This document shows positions 3,590 through 33,162 of a stretch of DNA of 34,854 bases, in pieces (within the stretch, counting starts at the first letter, position 1; each line of letters starts with the position of its first letter). Position numbers and translations under genes: made by a program. The notes below the pieces were generated by a model that made no database searches, was not told the DNA's origin, and saw only the letters and a list, made by a program, of their open reading frames with translations. Where the stretch lies: IMG/VR virus record IMGVR_UViG_3300020158_000012, positions 1-34,854 of that record. One strand, given 5' to 3'. The stretch is from a virus.

Positions 3590-4862
3590 CGTACAAGGCG
3601 CAATAGCCAACGCGCAGTTCCCGCAGAAGCTGCAATGCTTGTTCCAGCCTGAGAAACAACGCTACCGAATCTTGTACGGTGGACGGGGCGGCGCTAAGTC
3701 TTGGGGGGTAGCTAGGGCTTTGCTGATAAAAGGCGCACAAAGGCCGTTGCGTATCCTTTGCGCCCGTGAGTTTCAGACATCTATTCGGGATTCCGTCCAC
3801 AAATTATTGTGCGATCAGATCATAGAATTGCGCCTGGACGGGTTTTACGAGATTACTCAAAGCAGTCTACGAGGCAAAAACGGGACGGAATTTTCCTTTG
3901 TTGGACTAAAAAACAACGTGGCTAACGTCAAATCCTACGAAGGCGTGGACATTTGCTGGGTAGAAGAAGCCCAAACCACTAGCCGCCTGTCGTGGAACGT
4001 CCTAATTCCTACGATTCGTAAGCAGGATTCCGAGATATGGGTAACGTTTAACCCTGAGTTGGAGACGGATGAAACTTACCAGCGGTTTGTTATCCATCCA
4101 CCGGCTAACTCTGTAGTCACCAAGATTAACTGGTCTGACAACCCTTGGTTTCCTGAGACGTTGGAGTTAGAAAAGAATTCCCTGCGTGACCGCGACCCCG
4201 AATCCTATAACACCGTCTGGGAAGGAATATGCCGCCAATCCGTAGATGGGGCTGTGTTTGCCCGTGAGATGCAGATGGCAGACTTAGAGGATAGGATTAC
4301 CAAAGTCACCTATGACCCGACAAAACCCGTCCATGCGGTCTTTGACTTGGGCTGGTCGGATGCCACGGCTATATGGTTTGTGCAGTGGATTGGCATGGAA
4401 ACCCGACTAATTCGCTACCATGAGGACAGTCAAAGGACGATTTCCGAGTACCTGGCTAAGATGCAAACCTATGGTTACGTCTACGATACACTCTGGCTAC
4501 CGCATGATGCCGAGAACAAAACCCTCGCAGCGGCAGGCCGTTCTATCGACCAAATTGTGCGGGCAGCAGGGTATAAAACCAAAATTATCCCTAGAACGCC
4601 GGTCGTAGACAGTATTAACGCAGCGCGGACATTGTTTAGAAATTGCTGGTTTGATAGGGAAAACTGCGCGGATGGGCTACAATGTTTACGACATTACAGG
4701 TTTGACGTTGACCCTGACACCAAGGCGTTTAGCAAAAACCCCGTGCATGATGAGTATTCGCATGGCGCGGATGCGTTCAGAATGCTAGGGTTAGTTGTCA
4801 ATGAGCCGAAGAAACGGGTAGTTAAACAGACGTATCAAGTACCACAGTCATGGATGGCCTAA
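3582..4862 (+). CDS. terL: terminase large subunit
   Basis: This 426-residue protein is a phage DNA-packaging ATPase/nuclease of the PBSX-like terminase family. Walker A is YGGRGGAKS at residues 32-40 and Walker B with the catalytic Glu is VDICWVEEAQ at 122-131. The C-terminal RNase-H-like nuclease has acidic residues in FDLGWSD (254-260), PHDAE (307-311) and HDEYSHGADAF (389-399). The length is normal. It pumps DNA into the prohead through the portal encoded next. A headful mechanism would agree with the circularly permuted genome. Confidence 0.95.
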   Translation: MSDVQGAIANAQFPQKLQCLFQPEKQRYRILYGGRGGAKSWGVARALLIKGAQRPLRILCAREFQTSIRDSVHKLLCDQIIELRLDGFYEITQSSLRGKNGTEFSFVGLKNNVANVKSYEGVDICWVEEAQTTSRLSWNVLIPTIRKQDSEIWVTFNPELETDETYQRFVIHPPANSVVTKINWSDNPWFPETLELEKNSLRDRDPESYNTVWEGICRQSVDGAVFAREMQMADLEDRITKVTYDPTKPVHAVFDLGWSDATAIWFVQWIGMETRLIRYHEDSQRTISEYLAKMQTYGYVYDTLWLPHDAENKTLAAAGRSIDQIVRAAGYKTKIIPRTPVVDSINAARTLFRNCWFDRENCADGLQCLRHYRFDVDPDTKAFSKNPVHDEYSHGADAFRMLGLVVNEPKKRVVKQTYQVPQSWMA

Positions 4863-12911: not shown

Positions 12912-14372
12912 ATGGGAACTTTAACTTTTCAAGCGACAGCAGGCGGCTCGGTTAACTTGCTAGGCCCAAATATCTCAGGCACTGTTAACCTGACATTGCC
13001 AAGCGCGGATGGCACTAGCGGACAACCATTGCAGACTAACGGCAGCGGCACGCTTTCCTTTGCTAACCTGGCAATTGCTAATGGTGGCACGGGTGTTACG
13101 TCATTTGCGGCTAACCAAATTCATTATGGGTCGTTTAGCCAATCGGCTGGATTGACCTTTGACGGGACTAACTTTGCAACTACTGGAACGGCAACTGCTG
13201 CAAAGCTAATCCCTACTGGCACATCTGTTACGGGTAACGGTATGTACCTGCCCGCTGCCAACAGCGTAGGCATATCCACAGCGGGTGCAAACGCTGTTTA
13301 TATAGACGCAAGTCAGAACGTAGGTTTTGGTACGTCATCCCCCGCAGGTTTAGCGGCAAAAACATTCACCGTTCAAACTTCTGGGTTCTCATCAGTTGCT
13401 ATTACAACTGGAGATTATTCTTCTGGCGCTGGTTCAACGACTACTCTTATTGAATCACTTGGCTCTAGGTCTGATGGCAACACAACATTTGGTGGGCGTA
13501 TTGGCGCTGCGTTTCGGCGTACAGATGGAACAGCCATTTCGTCAGGACAAGTTCTAGGCTACTACGGTCTTGGTGGTCAGTGGGGGACGGATACATCGTA
13601 CCAACAGGCAAAATTGCTTTATTCAGCTAGTATTGTTGGTGTAGCAGAAGGTTCGTTTACATCGGCAACGGCAATGCCAACTGCAATTGTATTTGGCACG
13701 GGCAGCACAGGTGGTCAATTTCAATCAGCAAATACGGCTTACGGCACAGAACGTATGCGTATTACGTCTGCTGGTAACGTAGGCGTGGGTACAAATACCC
13801 CAAGTGGTAAATTAACCGTAGTAGGACAAATTAAATCTGCTTCTGCAACGCAATCCGCTCTTTCTTTATCAAATGCCGCACAAACAACCGGATTTCTTGT
13901 TGGCAGAAGTTTTAATAGCACAGATTTACAAGACTTCTTTATTTATGACGAAACTGCGGCGGCTTCACGATTGACTATTTCATCGGCTGGAATTGTTGCC
14001 ATGCCGGTTTACGGTGCTGGTGCGGCAACATTTTCAGCATCTGGCGTCATATCGTCCGTTTCAGATGAGACATGGAAAACTAAAGATGGTGTGCCAGTTG
14101 ACCCTGATGCCATGCTTAAAAAGTTGGAGCCGGGATACTGGTATTACAACGACGAGAAAAAAGAAACTTTTGGAGTTGATAGGCATTTAGGTTTTTACGC
14201 TCAAAACGTAAACGCTGCTATTGGCCCAGAAGCAGCACCAACTCCAGAAGAAGGCAAGCCGTGGGGCTACTATGACCGCTCTGTGTTGGCTGTAGCCGTG
14301 ATGTCTTTGCAAAAAGCACTTGCAACTATTGAATCTCTAACCGCCCGTATCACGGCACTTGAATCAACCTAA
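12912..14372 (+). CDS. tail fibre/spike with C-terminal S74 self-cleaving chaperone
   Basis: This 486-residue protein has a beta-rich N-terminal stalk (TLTFQATAGGSVNLLGPNI, IANGGTGVTSFA), repeats with SxGNVGVGT-type motifs (about 290-300), and an intramolecular chaperone domain from about residue 380. The S74 catalytic dyad is visible in SDETWKTK: a Ser at the cleavage point and Lys five residues later, as in endosialidase-type chaperones. The rest of the domain has DPDAMLKKLEPGYWYYND and HLGFYAQNV and ends in a coiled coil (SLQKALATIESLTARITALE). The chaperone trimerises the fibre and then cuts itself off. Confidence 0.88.
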   Translation: MGTLTFQATAGGSVNLLGPNISGTVNLTLPSADGTSGQPLQTNGSGTLSFANLAIANGGTGVTSFAANQIHYGSFSQSAGLTFDGTNFATTGTATAAKLIPTGTSVTGNGMYLPAANSVGISTAGANAVYIDASQNVGFGTSSPAGLAAKTFTVQTSGFSSVAITTGDYSSGAGSTTTLIESLGSRSDGNTTFGGRIGAAFRRTDGTAISSGQVLGYYGLGGQWGTDTSYQQAKLLYSASIVGVAEGSFTSATAMPTAIVFGTGSTGGQFQSANTAYGTERMRITSAGNVGVGTNTPSGKLTVVGQIKSASATQSALSLSNAAQTTGFLVGRSFNSTDLQDFFIYDETAAASRLTISSAGIVAMPVYGAGAATFSASGVISSVSDETWKTKDGVPVDPDAMLKKLEPGYWYYNDEKKETFGVDRHLGFYAQNVNAAIGPEAAPTPEEGKPWGYYDRSVLAVAVMSLQKALATIESLTARITALEST

Positions 14373-14382
14373 AGGAAATATC

Positions 14383-14676
14383 ATGATTACCACTTGGAAA
14401 ATCACCCAATGTGACCGCCTCACCGCAGACGGTTTCATCACCTGTGCATACTGGACAGTAAGCGCTGTTGACGGTGACTACACCGCATCAAGCTACGGCA
14501 CTTGCGGATTTCAAGAAGCAACGCCATCCAGCCCTTATGAAAAGGTGACTGAGCAGGACGTATTGAAATGGTGCTGGGCCAGCCGCGTGGACAAGGACGC
14601 AATAGAAGCAAGCCTAGCCGCCAATATTGATTTGCAAAAGAATCCCGTTGTCGCGCAAGGACTGCCGTGGCAGTAA
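14383..14676 (+). CDS. MITTWK-type small phage protein, copy 1
   Basis: This 97-residue protein starts at the ATG at 14383 (AAAGGAAATATC upstream); the in-frame TTG at 14359 lies in the fibre gene. It is a small beta/helix protein of a type often found beside phage tail genes (MITTWKI, WTVSAVDGDYTASSYGTCGF, PYEKVTEQDVLKW, VVAQGLPW), possibly the family catalogued as DUF7936 (from memory). A second, diverged copy is encoded at 15610. Function is unknown. It overlaps the next gene by ten bases. Confidence 0.68.
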   Translation: MITTWKITQCDRLTADGFITCAYWTVSAVDGDYTASSYGTCGFQEATPSSPYEKVTEQDVLKWCWASRVDKDAIEASLAANIDLQKNPVVAQGLPWQ

Positions 14677-14996
14677 TCACCGTCATTGCTGCGCTCTGGC
14701 TTTTTTACGTCTTTTACGTTTTCACAATGGGCGTGTATCGCGTGCAGCTTGCGGGTAAGCTAACGGGCCTGTCTAAGGTGCTGCTGATGCCTTTTGTGGT
14801 TATTGCGGTGTTGATGGACGTAGTGTGCCAGATGACGGTGGCAACCATAGTTTTTGCGGAATTGCCAAAAGAGTGGTTAGTTACTGCAAGACTGCAACGT
14901 TACATAGCTGGCAACGATGGATGGAGAAAAACGGCGGCAATGTATGTGTGCAATAATTTGTTAGACCCTTTTGACCCAAATGGAAAGCATTGTTAA
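14667..14996 (+). CDS. small membrane protein ending LLDPFDPNGKHC
   Basis: This 109-residue protein starts at GTG inside the previous gene. Two transmembrane segments are visible: residues about 2-22 (VITVIAALWLFYVFYVFTMG) and about 34-56 (VLLMPFVVIAVLMDVVCQMT). The soluble tail has LVTARLQRYIAGNDGWRKTA and ends LLDPFDPNGKHC, a C-terminal pattern that recurs in small membrane proteins of betaproteobacterial phages. Topology fits a lysis or envelope-modifying factor, but no function is established. Its stop codon (14994-14996) lies inside the 5' strand of the riboswitch outer stem. Confidence 0.7.
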   Translation: MAVITVIAALWLFYVFYVFTMGVYRVQLAGKLTGLSKVLLMPFVVIAVLMDVVCQMTVATIVFAELPKEWLVTARLQRYIAGNDGWRKTAAMYVCNNLLDPFDPNGKHC

Positions 14997-15070
14997 CTGG
15001 CATACTTATGCGAAAGCAAAGGACGCAAAGCTACCGGACTAAAGCGTAAAGCTATGTCAGCGGGGTTGCA
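14991..15070 (+). promoter_or_regulatory. cyclic di-GMP-I (GEMM-I) riboswitch aptamer
   Basis: The sequence carries the conserved elements of the c-di-GMP-I aptamer in order. A GGC (14999-15001) is followed by a hairpin with a GAAA tetraloop (stem 15005-15011 with 15016-15021, loop 15012-15015). Then come the invariant GGACGCAAAGC (15021-15031), CCGG (15034-15037), and the tetraloop receptor ACTAAA (15038-15043) facing TATGT (15053-15057) with a GC/GC stem and short loop between. It ends with AGCGGGGTT (15059-15067). The outer stem pairs TG, T, AAC (14991-14997) with GTTGCA (15065-15070). Compared with the Vibrio Vc2 aptamer, receptor differences covary (A-U in place of C-G). The 3' stem ends seven bases before an AGGA ribosome site for the 15090 gene, so translational control is plausible. 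No terminator is visible. Confidence 0.88.
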
Positions 15071-15089
15071 TAATCTAGGAAAACTGGAT

Positions 15090-15431
15090 ATGTCTGAAAT
15101 CAACGCTTCAAACTGGTTTGTGGATAAATTGTTACCACCCGCGCTACTGGTGCTGGTGACAAGTATTGGCGGGGCTTCGTGGACGATATGGAATAATTTG
15201 AACGAATTAAAAACTTTGGTAATAAACCAAGATAAAGAGATACAAACTATAAAATCAATGCAATTGCAATTAGTGGCAAAATCGGAGTTAGATAGCACCA
15301 TTAAAAATCTCAAGCAGCAAATAGAGATTGGGATGCTACGTAGCAAGATACCGCACAAGGCAAACAACAAGGTGTACGAGGAAGAATTTAAGTTGTTTGG
15401 TTTAGACGAAAAAGCATACGAAAAGCATTAA
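15090..15431 (+). CDS. membrane/coiled-coil protein under the c-di-GMP riboswitch
   Basis: This 113-residue protein has a short N-terminal region, one transmembrane segment at about residues 12-33 (KLLPPALLVLVTSIGGASWTI) and a long charged coiled coil (about 36-80), then a basic/acidic tail. The ATG at 15090 with AGGA ten bases upstream is chosen because the in-frame ATG at 15054 lies inside the riboswitch receptor helix. The layout (one TM plus coiled coil) recalls small phage holin-accessory or envelope-anchored proteins, but no family is recognised. Riboswitch control suggests that its level responds to host c-di-GMP. Confidence 0.7.
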   Translation: MSEINASNWFVDKLLPPALLVLVTSIGGASWTIWNNLNELKTLVINQDKEIQTIKSMQLQLVAKSELDSTIKNLKQQIEIGMLRSKIPHKANNKVYEEEFKLFGLDEKAYEKH

Positions 15432-15469: not shown

Positions 15470-15613
15470 ATGGAAAAAATAACTTTGTCGGTAAATTTGA
15501 TTAACGCTGTACTTCAATATTTAGGAACGCAACCATATCAAAATGTTTATCAATTGGTAGAGGCTATGCAAAAAGAGGCTAAACAACAAACCGAAGTTAA
15601 AGAGCCGGAATGA
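15470..15613 (+). CDS. 47-residue hypothetical protein
   Basis: This is a tiny protein with the pattern MEKITLSVNLINAVLQYLGT then an acidic/Gln-rich helix (LVEAMQKEAKQQ). It has a good GGAG ribosome site six bases upstream and its stop overlaps the next ATG (ATGA). Similar short proteins occur in phage structural operons. Function is unknown. Confidence 0.65.
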   Translation: MEKITLSVNLINAVLQYLGTQPYQNVYQLVEAMQKEAKQQTEVKEPE

Positions 15614-15945
15614 TTACAACTTGGAAAATTCTTGACATTTCCGTGGAAGGCGAGGCAATAACGCACGCCAAGTATTATGTTTTGGCTGATGACGAGACAA
15701 ATACAGTAGAAACTGAAGGAAATTGGGAGTTTGACAAGTTTAGCGTAAAGACCCCTTACGCTCAAGTGACAGAAAATCAGGTGATTTCTTGGATAAAGGA
15801 AGGTTCAACCCAATACGGGCAAAATGTAATAGAATCACGGTTAGAGGAACAATTGGCGCTTCTTGGTAAGACGAAATCTGTTGTGCCTCCCTGGAAACCG
15901 CCTGTGTTTACCTTGGAGCAACAATGGCACAGCCAATCGACATAG
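15610..15945 (+). CDS. MITTWK-type small phage protein, copy 2
   Basis: This 111-residue protein is a paralogue of the 97-residue protein at 14383. Both start MITTWKI, and PYAQVTENQVISWI here aligns with PYEKVTEQDVLKWC there; both then have an Ile-Glu helix and end in a PPW/LPW segment. The copies are well diverged, so duplication is old or the two were acquired separately. It overlaps the gp4-like gene by 22 bases. The role is unknown; genomic context suggests a tail-assembly or virion accessory. Confidence 0.68.
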   Translation: MITTWKILDISVEGEAITHAKYYVLADDETNTVETEGNWEFDKFSVKTPYAQVTENQVISWIKEGSTQYGQNVIESRLEEQLALLGKTKSVVPPWKPPVFTLEQQWHSQST

Positions 15946-25205: not shown

Positions 25206-25744
25206 GCGTTAATCTTTCACCCATAGGTAACGGATTCCAATTCTTTACCACCACCGGCATCCCTCTTAACGGGGGGTACATCTACACCTATGCAGCGGGC
25301 ACTACAACTCCTACAGCAACTTATACAAGTTCTGCGGGTACATCATCTAACACCAACCCTATCCAACTAGGCACGGATGGTCGCCCACCGAATGAGATAT
25401 GGCTTACATCAGGAACTAACTACAAGTTTGTCCTGGCTGATTCAAGCAATAGCGTTATTCAGACTTACGACAACCTATATGGCATTCTTGGAACAGCGGC
25501 TGCGGTCACTGCTGTGCCATCGGGCGGCATTATCATGTGGTCGGGCTCGATCAGTTCTGTGCCTTCTGGTTACTATCTTTGCGATGGTTCTAACGGCACG
25601 CCTAACCTTAAAGATTCGTTTGTGGTCGGCGCTGGCAACACCTACGCAGTGGGTAATACAGGCGGGTTCACATCTTCTGTAACCAGCAACGTAGGTACAA
25701 ACCTTCCCACCTACTATGCACTAGCTTTTATACAAAAATCATGA
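25202..25744 (+). CDS. head-binding / tail-collar fibre protein
   Basis: This 180-residue protein joins an N-terminal segment like the head-binding domain of podovirus tailspikes (NGFQFFTTTGIPLNGGYIYT, then NPIQLGTDGRPPNEIWL and YKFVLAD) to a collar-type domain (PSGGIIMWSGSISSVPSGYYLC, shown split as PSGGIIMWSG and SISSVPSGYYLC; NLKDSFVVGAG). The collar pattern is that of short phage tail fibres. It has no receptor-binding tip of its own, so it may be an adaptor or a short fibre. It overlaps neighbours by ATGA at both ends. Confidence 0.8.
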   Translation: MSVNLSPIGNGFQFFTTTGIPLNGGYIYTYAAGTTTPTATYTSSAGTSSNTNPIQLGTDGRPPNEIWLTSGTNYKFVLADSSNSVIQTYDNLYGILGTAAAVTAVPSGGIIMWSGSISSVPSGYYLCDGSNGTPNLKDSFVVGAGNTYAVGNTGGFTSSVTSNVGTNLPTYYALAFIQKS

Positions 25745-25974
25745 ACGCGCCTGAAATTGACCCTGTTCGTTATGGTGTACTTTGGCAAAAAGTGCAGGAC
25801 TATGAACGCCGATTTGACGAAATGTCTGCCAAGATTGACAAGTTAGAAACCAACATTGACAAACTTGTTGAAATAGCAAATCAGGGCAAAGGTTCGTTTT
25901 ACGCTGGCATGGTTATGGTGTCTGCTATTGGCAGCGTATTGGGTTATTTAAGCCATTGGGTGGGTAAAAACTAA
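25741..25974 (+). CDS. coiled-coil plus membrane-anchor protein of the lysis cassette
   Basis: This 77-residue protein has an N-terminal coiled coil (DYERRFDEMSAKIDKLETNI) and a C-terminal transmembrane helix (SFYAGMVMVSAIGSVLGYLS), ending WVGKN. The layout resembles XhlA/haemolysin-type accessory proteins found beside phage holins. It is the first of five overlapping genes that end with the endolysin, so an accessory lysis role is likely. Confidence 0.7.
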   Translation: MNAPEIDPVRYGVLWQKVQDYERRFDEMSAKIDKLETNIDKLVEIANQGKGSFYAGMVMVSAIGSVLGYLSHWVGKN

Positions 25975-25977
25975 TGT

Positions 25978-26283
25978 ATGCGTTGGGCCATACTTTTGTT
26001 GATGCTGGTAACAATATCGGCGGCTCAAGACAAGTTGATTTTGAACGCGCCATTGCCACCATTAAAGCTGCCGCCTAAGTCAACTTGCGCGGTGCAAGAG
26101 TTGTATGTTATAGCCTGGTCAACGCATGACCCAATAGAACGCCATAAGGCTATGTTGGCATGGTTGGATAAGTCAAAGTGTAGTGTGGATGACTACACAC
26201 TTATATGGAACAATTTGCCCGAATGGGCCGGTACTTCAGATAGTCCCGCATTACGGGGAAAGATTATGGAGAAGGCAAAATGA
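25978..26283 (+). CDS. secreted hypothetical protein in the lysis cassette
   Basis: This 101-residue protein has a signal peptide (MRWAILLLMLVTISAAQ) and no lipobox. The mature part has two Cys (TCAVQELYV, SKCSVDDY) and the segment STHDPIERHKAMLAWLDKS then IWNNLPEWAG. It is probably periplasmic, with a possible disulfide. It lies where spanins are often encoded, but it lacks the lipoprotein or TM-coiled-coil features of spanins. A 34-codon ORF in another frame starts at 25974 and is considered chance. Confidence 0.65.
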   Translation: MRWAILLLMLVTISAAQDKLILNAPLPPLKLPPKSTCAVQELYVIAWSTHDPIERHKAMLAWLDKSKCSVDDYTLIWNNLPEWAGTSDSPALRGKIMEKAK

Positions 26284-26519
26284 ACGATAAGGATAAATTG
26301 GTAAACGTTGTGACTTACATGGTCACCGCTACTTTGTGCGCGGTTGTACTTTCCTTGATCTGGGCGTTGATCCACGGTTTATTTGTCAAGGAAGTAGACA
26401 ACACCAAGATTTTTGAAATTATTGGCCCTGCTTTTCAAACCATTATTGGTGGTTTGATTGGTTGGCTATCCGGCCTAAAAGTAGGCGCACACAAGGAGGA
26501 AACATCCAATGGCCCTTGA
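26280..26519 (+). CDS. two-helix membrane protein, holin-like
   Basis: This 79-residue protein has two transmembrane segments (about residues 10-33, VTYMVTATLCAVVLSLIWAL; and about 48-66, GPAFQTIIGGLIGWLSGLKV) and a charged tail. Size and position between an XhlA-like protein and a 3TM holin suggest a holin or holin antagonist. It overlaps both neighbours. Confidence 0.65.
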   Translation: MNDKDKLVNVVTYMVTATLCAVVLSLIWALIHGLFVKEVDNTKIFEIIGPAFQTIIGGLIGWLSGLKVGAHKEETSNGP

Positions 26520-26916
26520 CCCCGTATCAGCATTGCTTGACATTGGCGGCAAAGTCTTAGATAGGGTTTTTCCCGACCCAGCCCAACAAGCCGCCGCTAG
26601 GCTTGAATTGTTAAAACTTCAACAATCGGGGGAATTAACCCAAATAGCGGGGCAAATGGATATCAACAAAATTGAGGCTGCAAGTAGTAGCGTTTTTGTC
26701 TCCGGCTGGCGACCCGCTATTGGTTGGATATGCGGTGCGGGATTTGCAGTGCAATTTGTTATTGGCCCACTAGCCGAATGGGGTTCCGCTTTGGCGGGAC
26801 ATCCCGTTAAGTTTCCCACGATGGACACCGGCACAATGATGCCTTTGCTTTTGGGAATGCTTGGCTTGGGTGGTATGCGTACCGCCGAAAAAATGCAAGG
26901 CGTAGCTTCAAAATGA
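26509..26916 (+). CDS. 3TM-type phage holin
   Basis: This 135-residue protein matches the 3TM / GTA-type holin family: an N-terminal amphipathic region (LDIGGKVLDRVFPDPAQQAA), a charged helix, then SGWRPAIGWICGAGFAVQF and two further hydrophobic stretches (about 84-100 and 108-124, MMPLLLGMLGLGGMRTAEK). Holins form inner-membrane lesions that release the endolysin. A strong AGGAGG ribosome site precedes it, and it overlaps the endolysin by ATGA. Confidence 0.82.
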   Translation: MALDPVSALLDIGGKVLDRVFPDPAQQAAARLELLKLQQSGELTQIAGQMDINKIEAASSSVFVSGWRPAIGWICGAGFAVQFVIGPLAEWGSALAGHPVKFPTMDTGTMMPLLLGMLGLGGMRTAEKMQGVASK

Positions 26917-27344
26917 ATCTTAGTTTTAATTTCACGTTAGAAGAACTAACCATAACCGACCATCGGGAGTTTAAGAATGAACCTAGTCCTAGTGAAAGAA
27001 CAAATCTTGTCCGTTTGGCAAACTTTTTGGAACAAGTTAAAGTTGCTTTGGGAAACAAGCCAATCATGGTTAACAGCGCATTTAGATGCAAAGAAGTAAA
27101 CGATGCGGTAGGTAGCAAGGACACAAGCCAACATCGGGTAGGTTGCGCCGCAGACCTTCGCGTACCAGGCATGACCCCCGATCAAGTTGTGCAAGCAATT
27201 ATGGCGGCGGGTTTGGCTTATGACCAATTAATCCGAGAATTTGACCGCTGGACGCACGTTAGCATCCCAAATGACCTTAAGGGCAAGCCAAGGGGTCAAA
27301 CGTTAATTATTGATGGAAAAGGCACTAGAATTTATTCGGCATAG
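26913..27344 (+). CDS. peptidase M15 endolysin
   Basis: This 143-residue protein is an M15-family zinc peptidase (L-alanyl-D-glutamate or D-Ala carboxypeptidase-like) that cleaves the peptide cross-links of peptidoglycan. Zinc ligands are visible: His74 and Asp81 in SQHRVGCAADL and His115 in WTHVSI; NSAFRC at 54-59 is the usual upstream segment. It is small and single-domain, with no signal peptide, so it needs the holin. It closes the lysis cassette, and its 3' end overlaps the convergent gene at 27325 by 20 bases. Confidence 0.9.
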   Translation: MNLSFNFTLEELTITDHREFKNEPSPSERTNLVRLANFLEQVKVALGNKPIMVNSAFRCKEVNDAVGSKDTSQHRVGCAADLRVPGMTPDQVVQAIMAAGLAYDQLIREFDRWTHVSIPNDLKGKPRGQTLIIDGKGTRIYSA

Positions 27345-27574: not shown

Positions 27575-27688
27575 TTAATAATCATTACGGTGAATTATAT
27601 AAAACGTATATAACACATAGCCTGTGGCTAAAACAAAATCTAAAACTATAAGCGCAAAAAACAATAACAACCAATGGCTCATATTCAT
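27575..27688 (-). CDS. 37-residue membrane protein
   Basis: This tiny protein has one hydrophobic segment from about residue 5 to 30 (WLLLFFALIVLDFVLATGYV). A GGGAGAACAC leader precedes the ATG, and its start overlaps the stop of the 170-residue repeat protein (ATGA). Function is unknown. Confidence 0.55.
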   Translation of the reverse strand: MNMSHWLLLFFALIVLDFVLATGYVLYTFYIIHRNDY

Positions 27689-28197
27689 GTGTTCTCCCTT
27701 GGTGGTGTGCAAGTGTGGATAACTGTTAGGTCTGCTGTGCGCTTACCGCAGCGAGGGCAAAAGTTACGCTCCTGCTCTGGCTGTGCGAGTAGAGTCTGAT
27801 AAGCGTTTGAACGCTCAAGGTCGCCACTGCCTACCCATGTGGGCTGTGGTGGGGTGGTGTAAAAAGGTTGCCCAACAGCAAAAACTTTTCCTTCGGCAAA
27901 TCTTAATGTTGCATCTTCACGCATCCACGCCACAGGCTCCTGCTCTGGCTGTGCCAAAGCTGCGTGCCACCCTTCCCATGCCCAGTACTCAAAGCTGTCT
28001 ATTATGCAAGGGTTAGTTTCGTTGAGACGTGGTTGCGTATCCCACCAAGCGTCAAACGCAGCTTGCTCTAGCTTGTCCTGCTCTGGCTGCGCTAAGGCTT
28101 CATTGATTGCGGCGTTAGTGATTTGGTACACCCGTTCGGGGTTTCCAGCGTTGTCTTTTATCTTGTTCAACAAGTCAACCAATGTTTCTTTAGTCAT
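27685..28197 (-). CDS. AQPEQE-repeat protein with C-terminal CxxC finger
   Basis: This 170-residue protein is built from modules joined by AQPEQE/AQPEQEPVAW linkers (three copies) that occur widely in Burkholderiales phages. The middle has WWDTQPRLNETNPC and WEGWHAAL, and FYTTPP precedes the last linker. The C-terminal module (NFCPRCGKRTADLTVIHTC) is a probable zinc finger and is nearly identical to that of the 28355 gene. Role unknown; it is an early-region accessory protein. The start is coupled (ATGA) to the 54-residue gene upstream. Confidence 0.72.
   Translation of the reverse strand: MTKETLVDLLNKIKDNAGNPERVYQITNAAINEALAQPEQDKLEQAAFDAWWDTQPRLNETNPCIIDSFEYWAWEGWHAALAQPEQEPVAWMREDATLRFAEGKVFAVGQPFYTTPPQPTWVGSGDLERSNAYQTLLAQPEQERNFCPRCGKRTADLTVIHTCTPPRENT
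27686..27786 (-). repeat. direct repeat copy A (CxxC module and RBS-start)
   Basis: This ~100-base stretch encodes the last residues of the 170-residue protein (AQPEQERNFCPRCG... to the stop) and the ribosome site and start of the next gene. It is nearly identical to 28356-28459, differing by a few substitutions and one three-base indel. Confidence 0.85.
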
Positions 28198-28358
28198 ACA
28201 GTATCCTTCTCACTCAAAATTACACACGAACCAAACCATGCGATGCAACCAAGCAAGCAGATAGGCCAATACACCCAAGGAGGACAAAATTCAAATGCCG
28301 CTGAAATAACAAATGGCAAAATAATTAAGTGTAGATATGCTTTTTGTTTCTCAGTCAT
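28194..28358 (-). CDS. 54-residue membrane protein
   Basis: This small protein has two hydrophobic segments (about residues 8-21, YLHLIILPFVISAA; and about 29-46, VYWPICLLGCIAWFGSCV). The ATG at 28358, just after GGAGAAGAACAC, is preferred over an in-frame upstream ATG at 28385 that lies in the previous gene. Its stop overlaps the start of the 170-residue protein. Function is unknown. Confidence 0.6.
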   Translation of the reverse strand: MTEKQKAYLHLIILPFVISAAFEFCPPWVYWPICLLGCIAWFGSCVILSEKDTV

Positions 28359-28594
28359 GTGTTCTTCTCCTGTGGTGGTGTACAAGTGTGGATAACTGTC
28401 AGGTCTGCTGTGCGCTTACCGCAGCGTGGGCAGAAGTTACGCTCCTGCTCTGGCTGTGCAAGGGCTTGCTTGCCAATGGAAAGCACCTCATCAAGCCTAG
28501 ACACGTCCCACCCAATGGGGCCGTATTCAGGGTCAACAATCTGATCCCTTGCAATTTTTAACGCCTCCAGCGCCAGCTTCAATGCTTCTTTCAT
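28355..28594 (-). CDS. AQPEQE-linker protein with CxxC finger
   Basis: This 79-residue protein has an N-terminal helix typical of the group (MKEALKLALEALKIARDQI), WDVSRLDEVLS, the AQPEQE linker and the CPRCG...HTC finger. It looks like a minimal version of the shuffled family: one head module, one linker, one finger. Probably zinc-binding; target unknown. The start is overlapped by the stop of the 28591 gene. Confidence 0.7.
   Translation of the reverse strand: MKEALKLALEALKIARDQIVDPEYGPIGWDVSRLDEVLSIGKQALAQPEQERNFCPRCGKRTADLTVIHTCTPPQEKNT
28356..28459 (-). repeat. direct repeat copy B (CxxC module and RBS-start)
   Basis: This copy encodes the end of the 79-residue protein and the start region of the 54-residue gene. 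It is nearly identical in DNA to 27686-27786. Recombination between the two copies would delete about 670 bases, removing the 54-residue gene and fusing the modules. Confidence 0.85.
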
Positions 28595-33086: not shown

Positions 33087-33125
33087 AGTTAGGGCACGGC
33101 TACCTTTAGCGGGGGAAAAGACGAT

Positions 33126-33162
33126 TCATCACCGTCCTGCCGATGCTTCTTTTCAGTGATGA
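33126..33162. repeat. inverted repeat before the replication gene
   Basis: TCATCAC (33126-33132) and GTGATGA (33156-33162) flank a 23-base loop in the ~100 bases between the Cro-like and replication genes. It may be a regulatory hairpin or part of an origin; the rest of this interval shows no gene. Confidence 0.35.

Follow-up and report, generated by a model that had tools for sequence, protein, structure and literature searches.

The question raised by this locus is whether the late operon of a P22-like podovirus carries a genuine c-di-GMP-I (GEMM-I) riboswitch and, if it does, which gene the element would control, in which direction, and for which stage of the phage life cycle. The window, i.e., the whole stretch of DNA analysed here, is an IMG/VR fragment of 34,854 nucleotides (34.9 kb). 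An earlier note on its sequence had proposed the aptamer, with the Rfam RF01051 covariance model as the means of checking it. Scanning of the entire window (cmscan, Rfam 15) placed the c-di-GMP-I model on the plus strand at 14989-15073, at full length (model positions 1-87) and with a score of 64.6 bits (E = 1.3e-10) against a family cut-off of 35 bits; it is the sole c-di-GMP-I element of the record. The motifs that the earlier note had named, a GAAA-capped hairpin, GGACGCAAAGC, CCGG, an ACUAAA/UAUGU receptor and AGCGGGGUU, were all found in place. The GAAA loop with its ACUAAA/UAUG receptor is seen both in the sequence and in the Rfam alignment, and the two putatively dock in the folded RNA. 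Other details held only in part. Of the two receptor substitutions said to preserve pairing, only A-U for C-G agrees with the alignment; the pair next to it, for which G-U is the most frequent form, is G-C. The outer stem said to close the element (P1) is weak, its best form consisting of a U14998-A15070 pair with bulged GUUA/UAAU, and it is absent from the structure given by Rfam.

Conservation of the element was evaluated in an alignment of 12 aptamers from phage and mobile elements, all taken from viral contigs. Standard pairs fill 99.6% of the paired cells, two-sided changes occur in 12 of the 20 pairs of the P2/P3 core, and the covariation score of 0.59 was matched by none of 500 shuffles. 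The ligand-site columns G12, C13 and A35-C43 are invariant, and the C92 column is C in all 12 sequences. In the window, the equivalents of the ligand contacts G20, A47 and C92 (G14999, GACGCAAAGC and C15069, respectively) are all present. G20 is a selectivity factor for c-di-GMP versus cGAMP (PMC9262584), and its replacement by A is associated with cGAMP binding (PMC6274999). Position 20 of the window element is G, and not the A of the cGAMP-selective GEMM-Ib type; judged by sequence, this residue and the invariant C92 form the pattern of c-di-GMP binders rather than of cGAMP binders. Together these results confirm that the window element is a genuine c-di-GMP-I aptamer with its ligand-contact positions intact. 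Two other phage or mobile-element aptamers (L009, 6512-6594; L008, 8005-8088) have an A instead of G20, the variant associated with cGAMP binding.

The window phage is a P22-like podovirus by its portal, scaffold, coat, gp10-like and ejection proteins, and also encodes an Erf/RecE pair. The best named matches of its portal are in Xanthomonas phage PBR31 (48%) and Rhodoferax phage P26218 (43.5%), and a betaproteobacterial host is plausible. As the earlier note had described, the aptamer lies in the late operon, directly 5' of a gene for a small membrane protein, and the order on the plus strand is a 109-aa membrane protein gene (14667-14996), the aptamer, and the gene taken to be regulated, here called ds (15090-15431). 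The upstream stop codon (14994-14996) precedes G20 by 2 nt, and the aptamer thus abuts the upstream frame. The 113-aa ds product is predicted to have a single hydrophobic segment at its N-terminal end and a long helix resembling a coiled coil. It gave no Pfam match above the cut-off and no PHROG match, which places it outside the recognised lysis families. A second lysis region, on the plus strand at 25741-27344, encodes a 77-aa coiled-coil/TM protein, two small proteins, a 3-TM holin (26509) and an M15 endolysin (26913). Because this recognised holin/endolysin pair is more than 10 kb (about 11 kb) from the cassette, a lysis role for the window copy of ds rests on homology.

Several features of the fragment may be recorded here. 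The riboswitch cassette lies between two diverged plus-strand DUF7936 genes, one 5' (14383-14676) and one 3' (15610-15945), perhaps a scar of its gain. An int-alpA RNA (RF02996, 37.2 bits) occurs at 33093-33161, just 5' of a replication gene (33186); neither an alpA nor an integrase gene was seen in the fragment. A repeat of about 100 bases (27684-27786 and 28355-28459), with 85-95% conservation among relatives, contains the minus-strand coding sequence for a CPRCGKRTADLTVIHTCTPP-like zinc-ribbon tail shared by different small proteins.

Relatives of the element were sought by two DNA-pattern scans over 2.9 million viral contigs, which gave 22 contigs with a covariance-confirmed aptamer; L003 and L010 were discarded as chance matches to the DNA pattern. 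Five of the confirmed contigs, from five data sets (L002, L005, L011, L015 and L013), have aptamers 89-92% identical to that of the window over 72-74 nt. As far as each contig reaches, their gene order is an XhlA-like gene, the aptamer, a 137-aa peptidase-like gene, a ds homologue (42-48% identical to ds), a holin-like gene and an endolysin gene. The endolysin was assigned by Pfam and PHROGs, and the holin-like gene belongs to PHROG 6637, where its function is unnamed. The peptidase-like protein gave no Pfam or PDB match and a low-confidence structure model (pLDDT 48); from the pattern H..G.V.G...HS / CYEW alone it may be labelled "permuted papain-like", and the PHROG label "enoyl-CoA hydratase" (phrog_1128) is regarded as misleading. 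Scans of genome contigs with ds and the peptidase-like protein, carried out for prophages that might reveal hosts, returned no relative. Among 50,697 records of isolated phages, ds, the peptidase-like protein and the aptamer likewise had no match, apart from chance matches of 18-19 nt to the aptamer.

The association with lysis genes extends to phages in which the aptamer is absent. A ds protein 87% identical to that of the window is encoded in L017-L022, all aptamer-free, and ds homologues precede holin-like and endolysin genes in L002, L005, L011, L013, L015 and L017-L021. In the distant phage L052, also aptamer-free, XhlA-like, peptidase-like, ds-like and M15 endolysin genes are consecutive. 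The upstream membrane protein of the window is 91-92% identical in L002 and L011 and 93% identical in L027 and L028, where its gene is the first of a complete lysis cassette that occupies the genomic slot of the aptamer cassette in the window; the last gene of the L027 cassette encodes a phage lysozyme. By their gene order in relatives, ds and its partners are assigned to a lysis operon, although ds is unrecognised by family databases. The proposal that the aptamer sits between structural genes was thus right as to the late operon, but "structural" alone does not describe its place, since relatives put the element in lysis-type operons. The reading of a c-di-GMP-I aptamer in a phage late operon is supported overall, and of the roles that had been suggested for it, lysis is the one backed by relatives.

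Comparison of the junctions shows that the aptamer is a portable unit. Around this locus, the homology that blastn finds between the window and the L002 group is confined to 14996-15069, that is, to the aptamer. The upstream neighbours are unlike (the membrane protein in the window, the XhlA-like protein in the L002 group), as are the downstream ones (ds and the peptidase-like protein, respectively). With neither flanking gene in common, the aptamer has been kept while the surrounding genes changed. In both settings it occupies the gap from the stop codon of one gene to the start codon of the next: the stop lies 2 nt before G20 in the window and 5 nt before it in L002, and the next AUG is about 20 nt past C92 in the window and L002 group alike. 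The resulting 93-nt gap is the largest in the late operon of the window. In aptamer-free phages, the XhlA-like and peptidase-like genes of L052 share an ATGA start/stop overlap, and ds of L017 overlaps its upstream gene by 8 nt. As these junctions overlap and the aptamer-bearing ones do not, tight translational coupling appears to have been replaced by a regulated gap. The aptamer is therefore real, conserved and portable, and is placed between a stop codon and the next start.

For understanding how the element might act on the next gene, the aptamer tail was folded together with the start region. In the window a 10-bp hairpin of -8.3 kcal/mol is predicted (15068-15093), in which G15068-A15072 and U15074-G15078 pair with C15084-U15093 and the ligand-binding C15069 (C92) pairs with the G of the AUG. 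The Shine-Dalgarno sequence AGGA (15077-15080), 9 nt before the ATG, is divided between the stem and the loop. A hairpin of the same plan is predicted from unrelated sequence in L002, its loop containing AAGG and its C92 pairing with the nucleotide that follows the AUG. Pairing of the AUG with the aptamer tail reached the observed strength in 18 of 2000 dinucleotide shuffles for the window and 11 of 2000 for L002, a statistic picked after the fold had been seen. Holding the pocket bases free lowered the cost of opening the AUG from 2.4-3.9 to 0.4-1.2 kcal/mol across four sequences and four transcript lengths, in an energy model that omits tertiary contacts. From this drop, the element is predicted to switch translation ON. 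For the window, the inner Shine-Dalgarno hairpin stays closed when the bound state is modelled, and the predicted change there is consequently modest (about 1.5-2.7 kcal/mol).

Control by transcription termination was rejected, there being no intrinsic terminator 3' of the aptamer on the plus strand. A promoter belonging to the aptamer itself was also rejected: the candidate TTGACC-17-GATAAA of L002, L015 and L013 falls inside the XhlA-like reading frame, and a promoter scan found no site. In L002 (1655-1690), an AUG within the aptamer begins a frame of 8 codons, and the stop codon of this frame overlaps the Shine-Dalgarno sequence of the next gene; this arrangement is not conserved in L013, and the window counterpart of the AUG (15054) is in frame with ds.

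A working model can be proposed from these observations. Without c-di-GMP, the last bases of the aptamer, including C92, would base-pair with the downstream gene's start codon in a hairpin that also traps the Shine-Dalgarno sequence, and that gene would be poorly translated. When bound, c-di-GMP would engage C92, the outer half of the hairpin would open, and translation would start. The protein so made would, by analogy with the relatives, be an accessory of the lysis machinery, and the phage would thereby adapt lysis to whether its host is sessile (high c-di-GMP) or motile. We infer ligand binding, the direction of the switch and the effect on lysis, and consider it probable, with moderate confidence, that the element is a working c-di-GMP-I riboswitch that forms an intercistronic spacer in a lysis-type operon and acts as a translational ON switch, tuning lysis to c-di-GMP. 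The broader proposal, of a portable intercistronic riboswitch that is carried by proteobacterial podoviruses, has c-di-GMP competing with the start codon for a single base, and times lysis by the motile/sessile signal, is more tentative, and we place it somewhat short of an even chance.

Other interpretations of the same data were weighed. The sign of the switch could be the opposite, with c-di-GMP promoting P1 beside the Shine-Dalgarno sequence and turning translation OFF, or the state could be set by the ribosome terminating upstream, with the ligand only fine-tuning coupling. Vc2, the best-studied translational GEMM-I riboswitch, is an OFF switch (PMC9262584), and with the upstream stop 2-5 nt from G20, ribosomes do get to the aptamer. 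In each of two unrelated platforms, the pairing that competes for C92 nevertheless takes in the start codon, from which the folding model predicts ON, and the interpretation as an OFF or coupling-dependent switch is considered unlikely. It is rather less likely still that a c-di-GMP-binding aptamer serves assembly or host interaction instead of lysis, as part of a moron-like cassette with tail fibre genes on one side and head-closure genes on the other. The position of the cassette would suit such a role, as it lies between the tail fibre gene (12912-14372) and connector-region genes with a DUF7936 gene on each side; but the same slot in L027 is occupied by a lysis cassette that begins with the same upstream gene and ends with the phage lysozyme, and ds homologues stand before holin-like and endolysin genes in the ten contigs listed above and before the endolysin gene in L052.

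Lambdoid phages are known to have short boundary sequences where modules join, and homology between the window and its relatives breaks exactly at the aptamer edges, so that the element might be seen as a relic or a passive joint for recombination. In that case its 74 nt would be a conserved linker, retained through recombination between phages and with no response to ligand. The invariance of the ligand-contact bases, a compensatory U-A to G-C change between the window and L002 aptamers, and the rebuilding of the start-codon hairpin on two different flanks all argue against a mere linker, and we regard this reading as very improbable.

Most of the nearest counterparts of the window element belong to its own RNA family. 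With Vc2 of Vibrio cholerae and Cd1 of C. difficile (RF01051), the window element shares the core, the tetraloop-receptor architecture, G20 and C92; it differs in being intercistronic rather than in a 5' leader, in its weak P1, in its proteobacterial-type podovirus setting, and in the predicted direct competition of C92 with the start-codon region. A canonical P1 is missing from Cd1 as well (PMC9262584), whereas a weak, bulged one can be drawn in the window. Two c-di-GMP-I riboswitches of C. difficile prophages lie close to the lysis module (PMC3649979); by way of a terminator, they control an antitoxin RNA that has a promoter of its own (PMC7699646). The precedent in C. difficile phage cited by the earlier note therefore exists but works differently: Cdi1_4, Cdi1_5 and the riboswitch of phage phiCD27 (phiCD119 type) are phage-borne as in the window, whereas they act by termination on antitoxin RNA, and the window element is predicted to act translationally on a membrane protein gene. 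Nor does the phiCD27 aptamer head lysis genes: it lies beside the integrase gene, about 4.8 kb beyond the endolysin gene and on the other strand. A 2023 review of c-di-GMP signalling names the phiCD119 riboswitch as its only phage example (PMC10333796). The glutamine riboswitch of methylophage Melnitz is also phage-encoded and was speculated to bear on lysis, but it has another ligand, belongs to another RNA family and controls tmRNA (PMC9004378). The RNA class is known, the host group and genomic place are new, and the platform design is probably new. In the present case a whole podovirus family has such an element at lysis-type genes, and its compact design would offer a direct test of whether phages adjust lysis to biofilm versus swimming hosts, and competition between C92 and the start codon, if true, would make for an unusually short expression platform.

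Two Firmicute contigs from IMG/VR resemble the window group in having a c-di-GMP-I aptamer 5' of holin and endolysin genes, with a different first gene and with aptamers not close in sequence to that of the window. In the prophage L040, the aptamer (4338-4422, minus strand) is followed first by the gene for a SinI anti-repressor (PF08671, E 5.9e-11) and then by holin and amidase genes; in L009 it lies 5' of genes for a copper-amine-oxidase-N protein, a holin and a lysozyme. By a rough count, lysis genes occur at 3 of about 13 aptamer contexts, while most of the others have a CheY-like or zinc-ribbon gene as neighbour or belong to mobile elements, which is suggestive of a link between c-di-GMP sensing and lysis. 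If the window model is true, these two contigs and the podoviruses would mean that c-di-GMP sensing has become coupled to phage lysis genes repeatedly and independently. L040 thus has one c-di-GMP aptamer ahead of both a biofilm regulator and lysis genes. In L036, L038, L039 and L042, c-di-GMP-I aptamers in or beside Bacillales-type prophages stand directly before genes for CheY-like response regulators.
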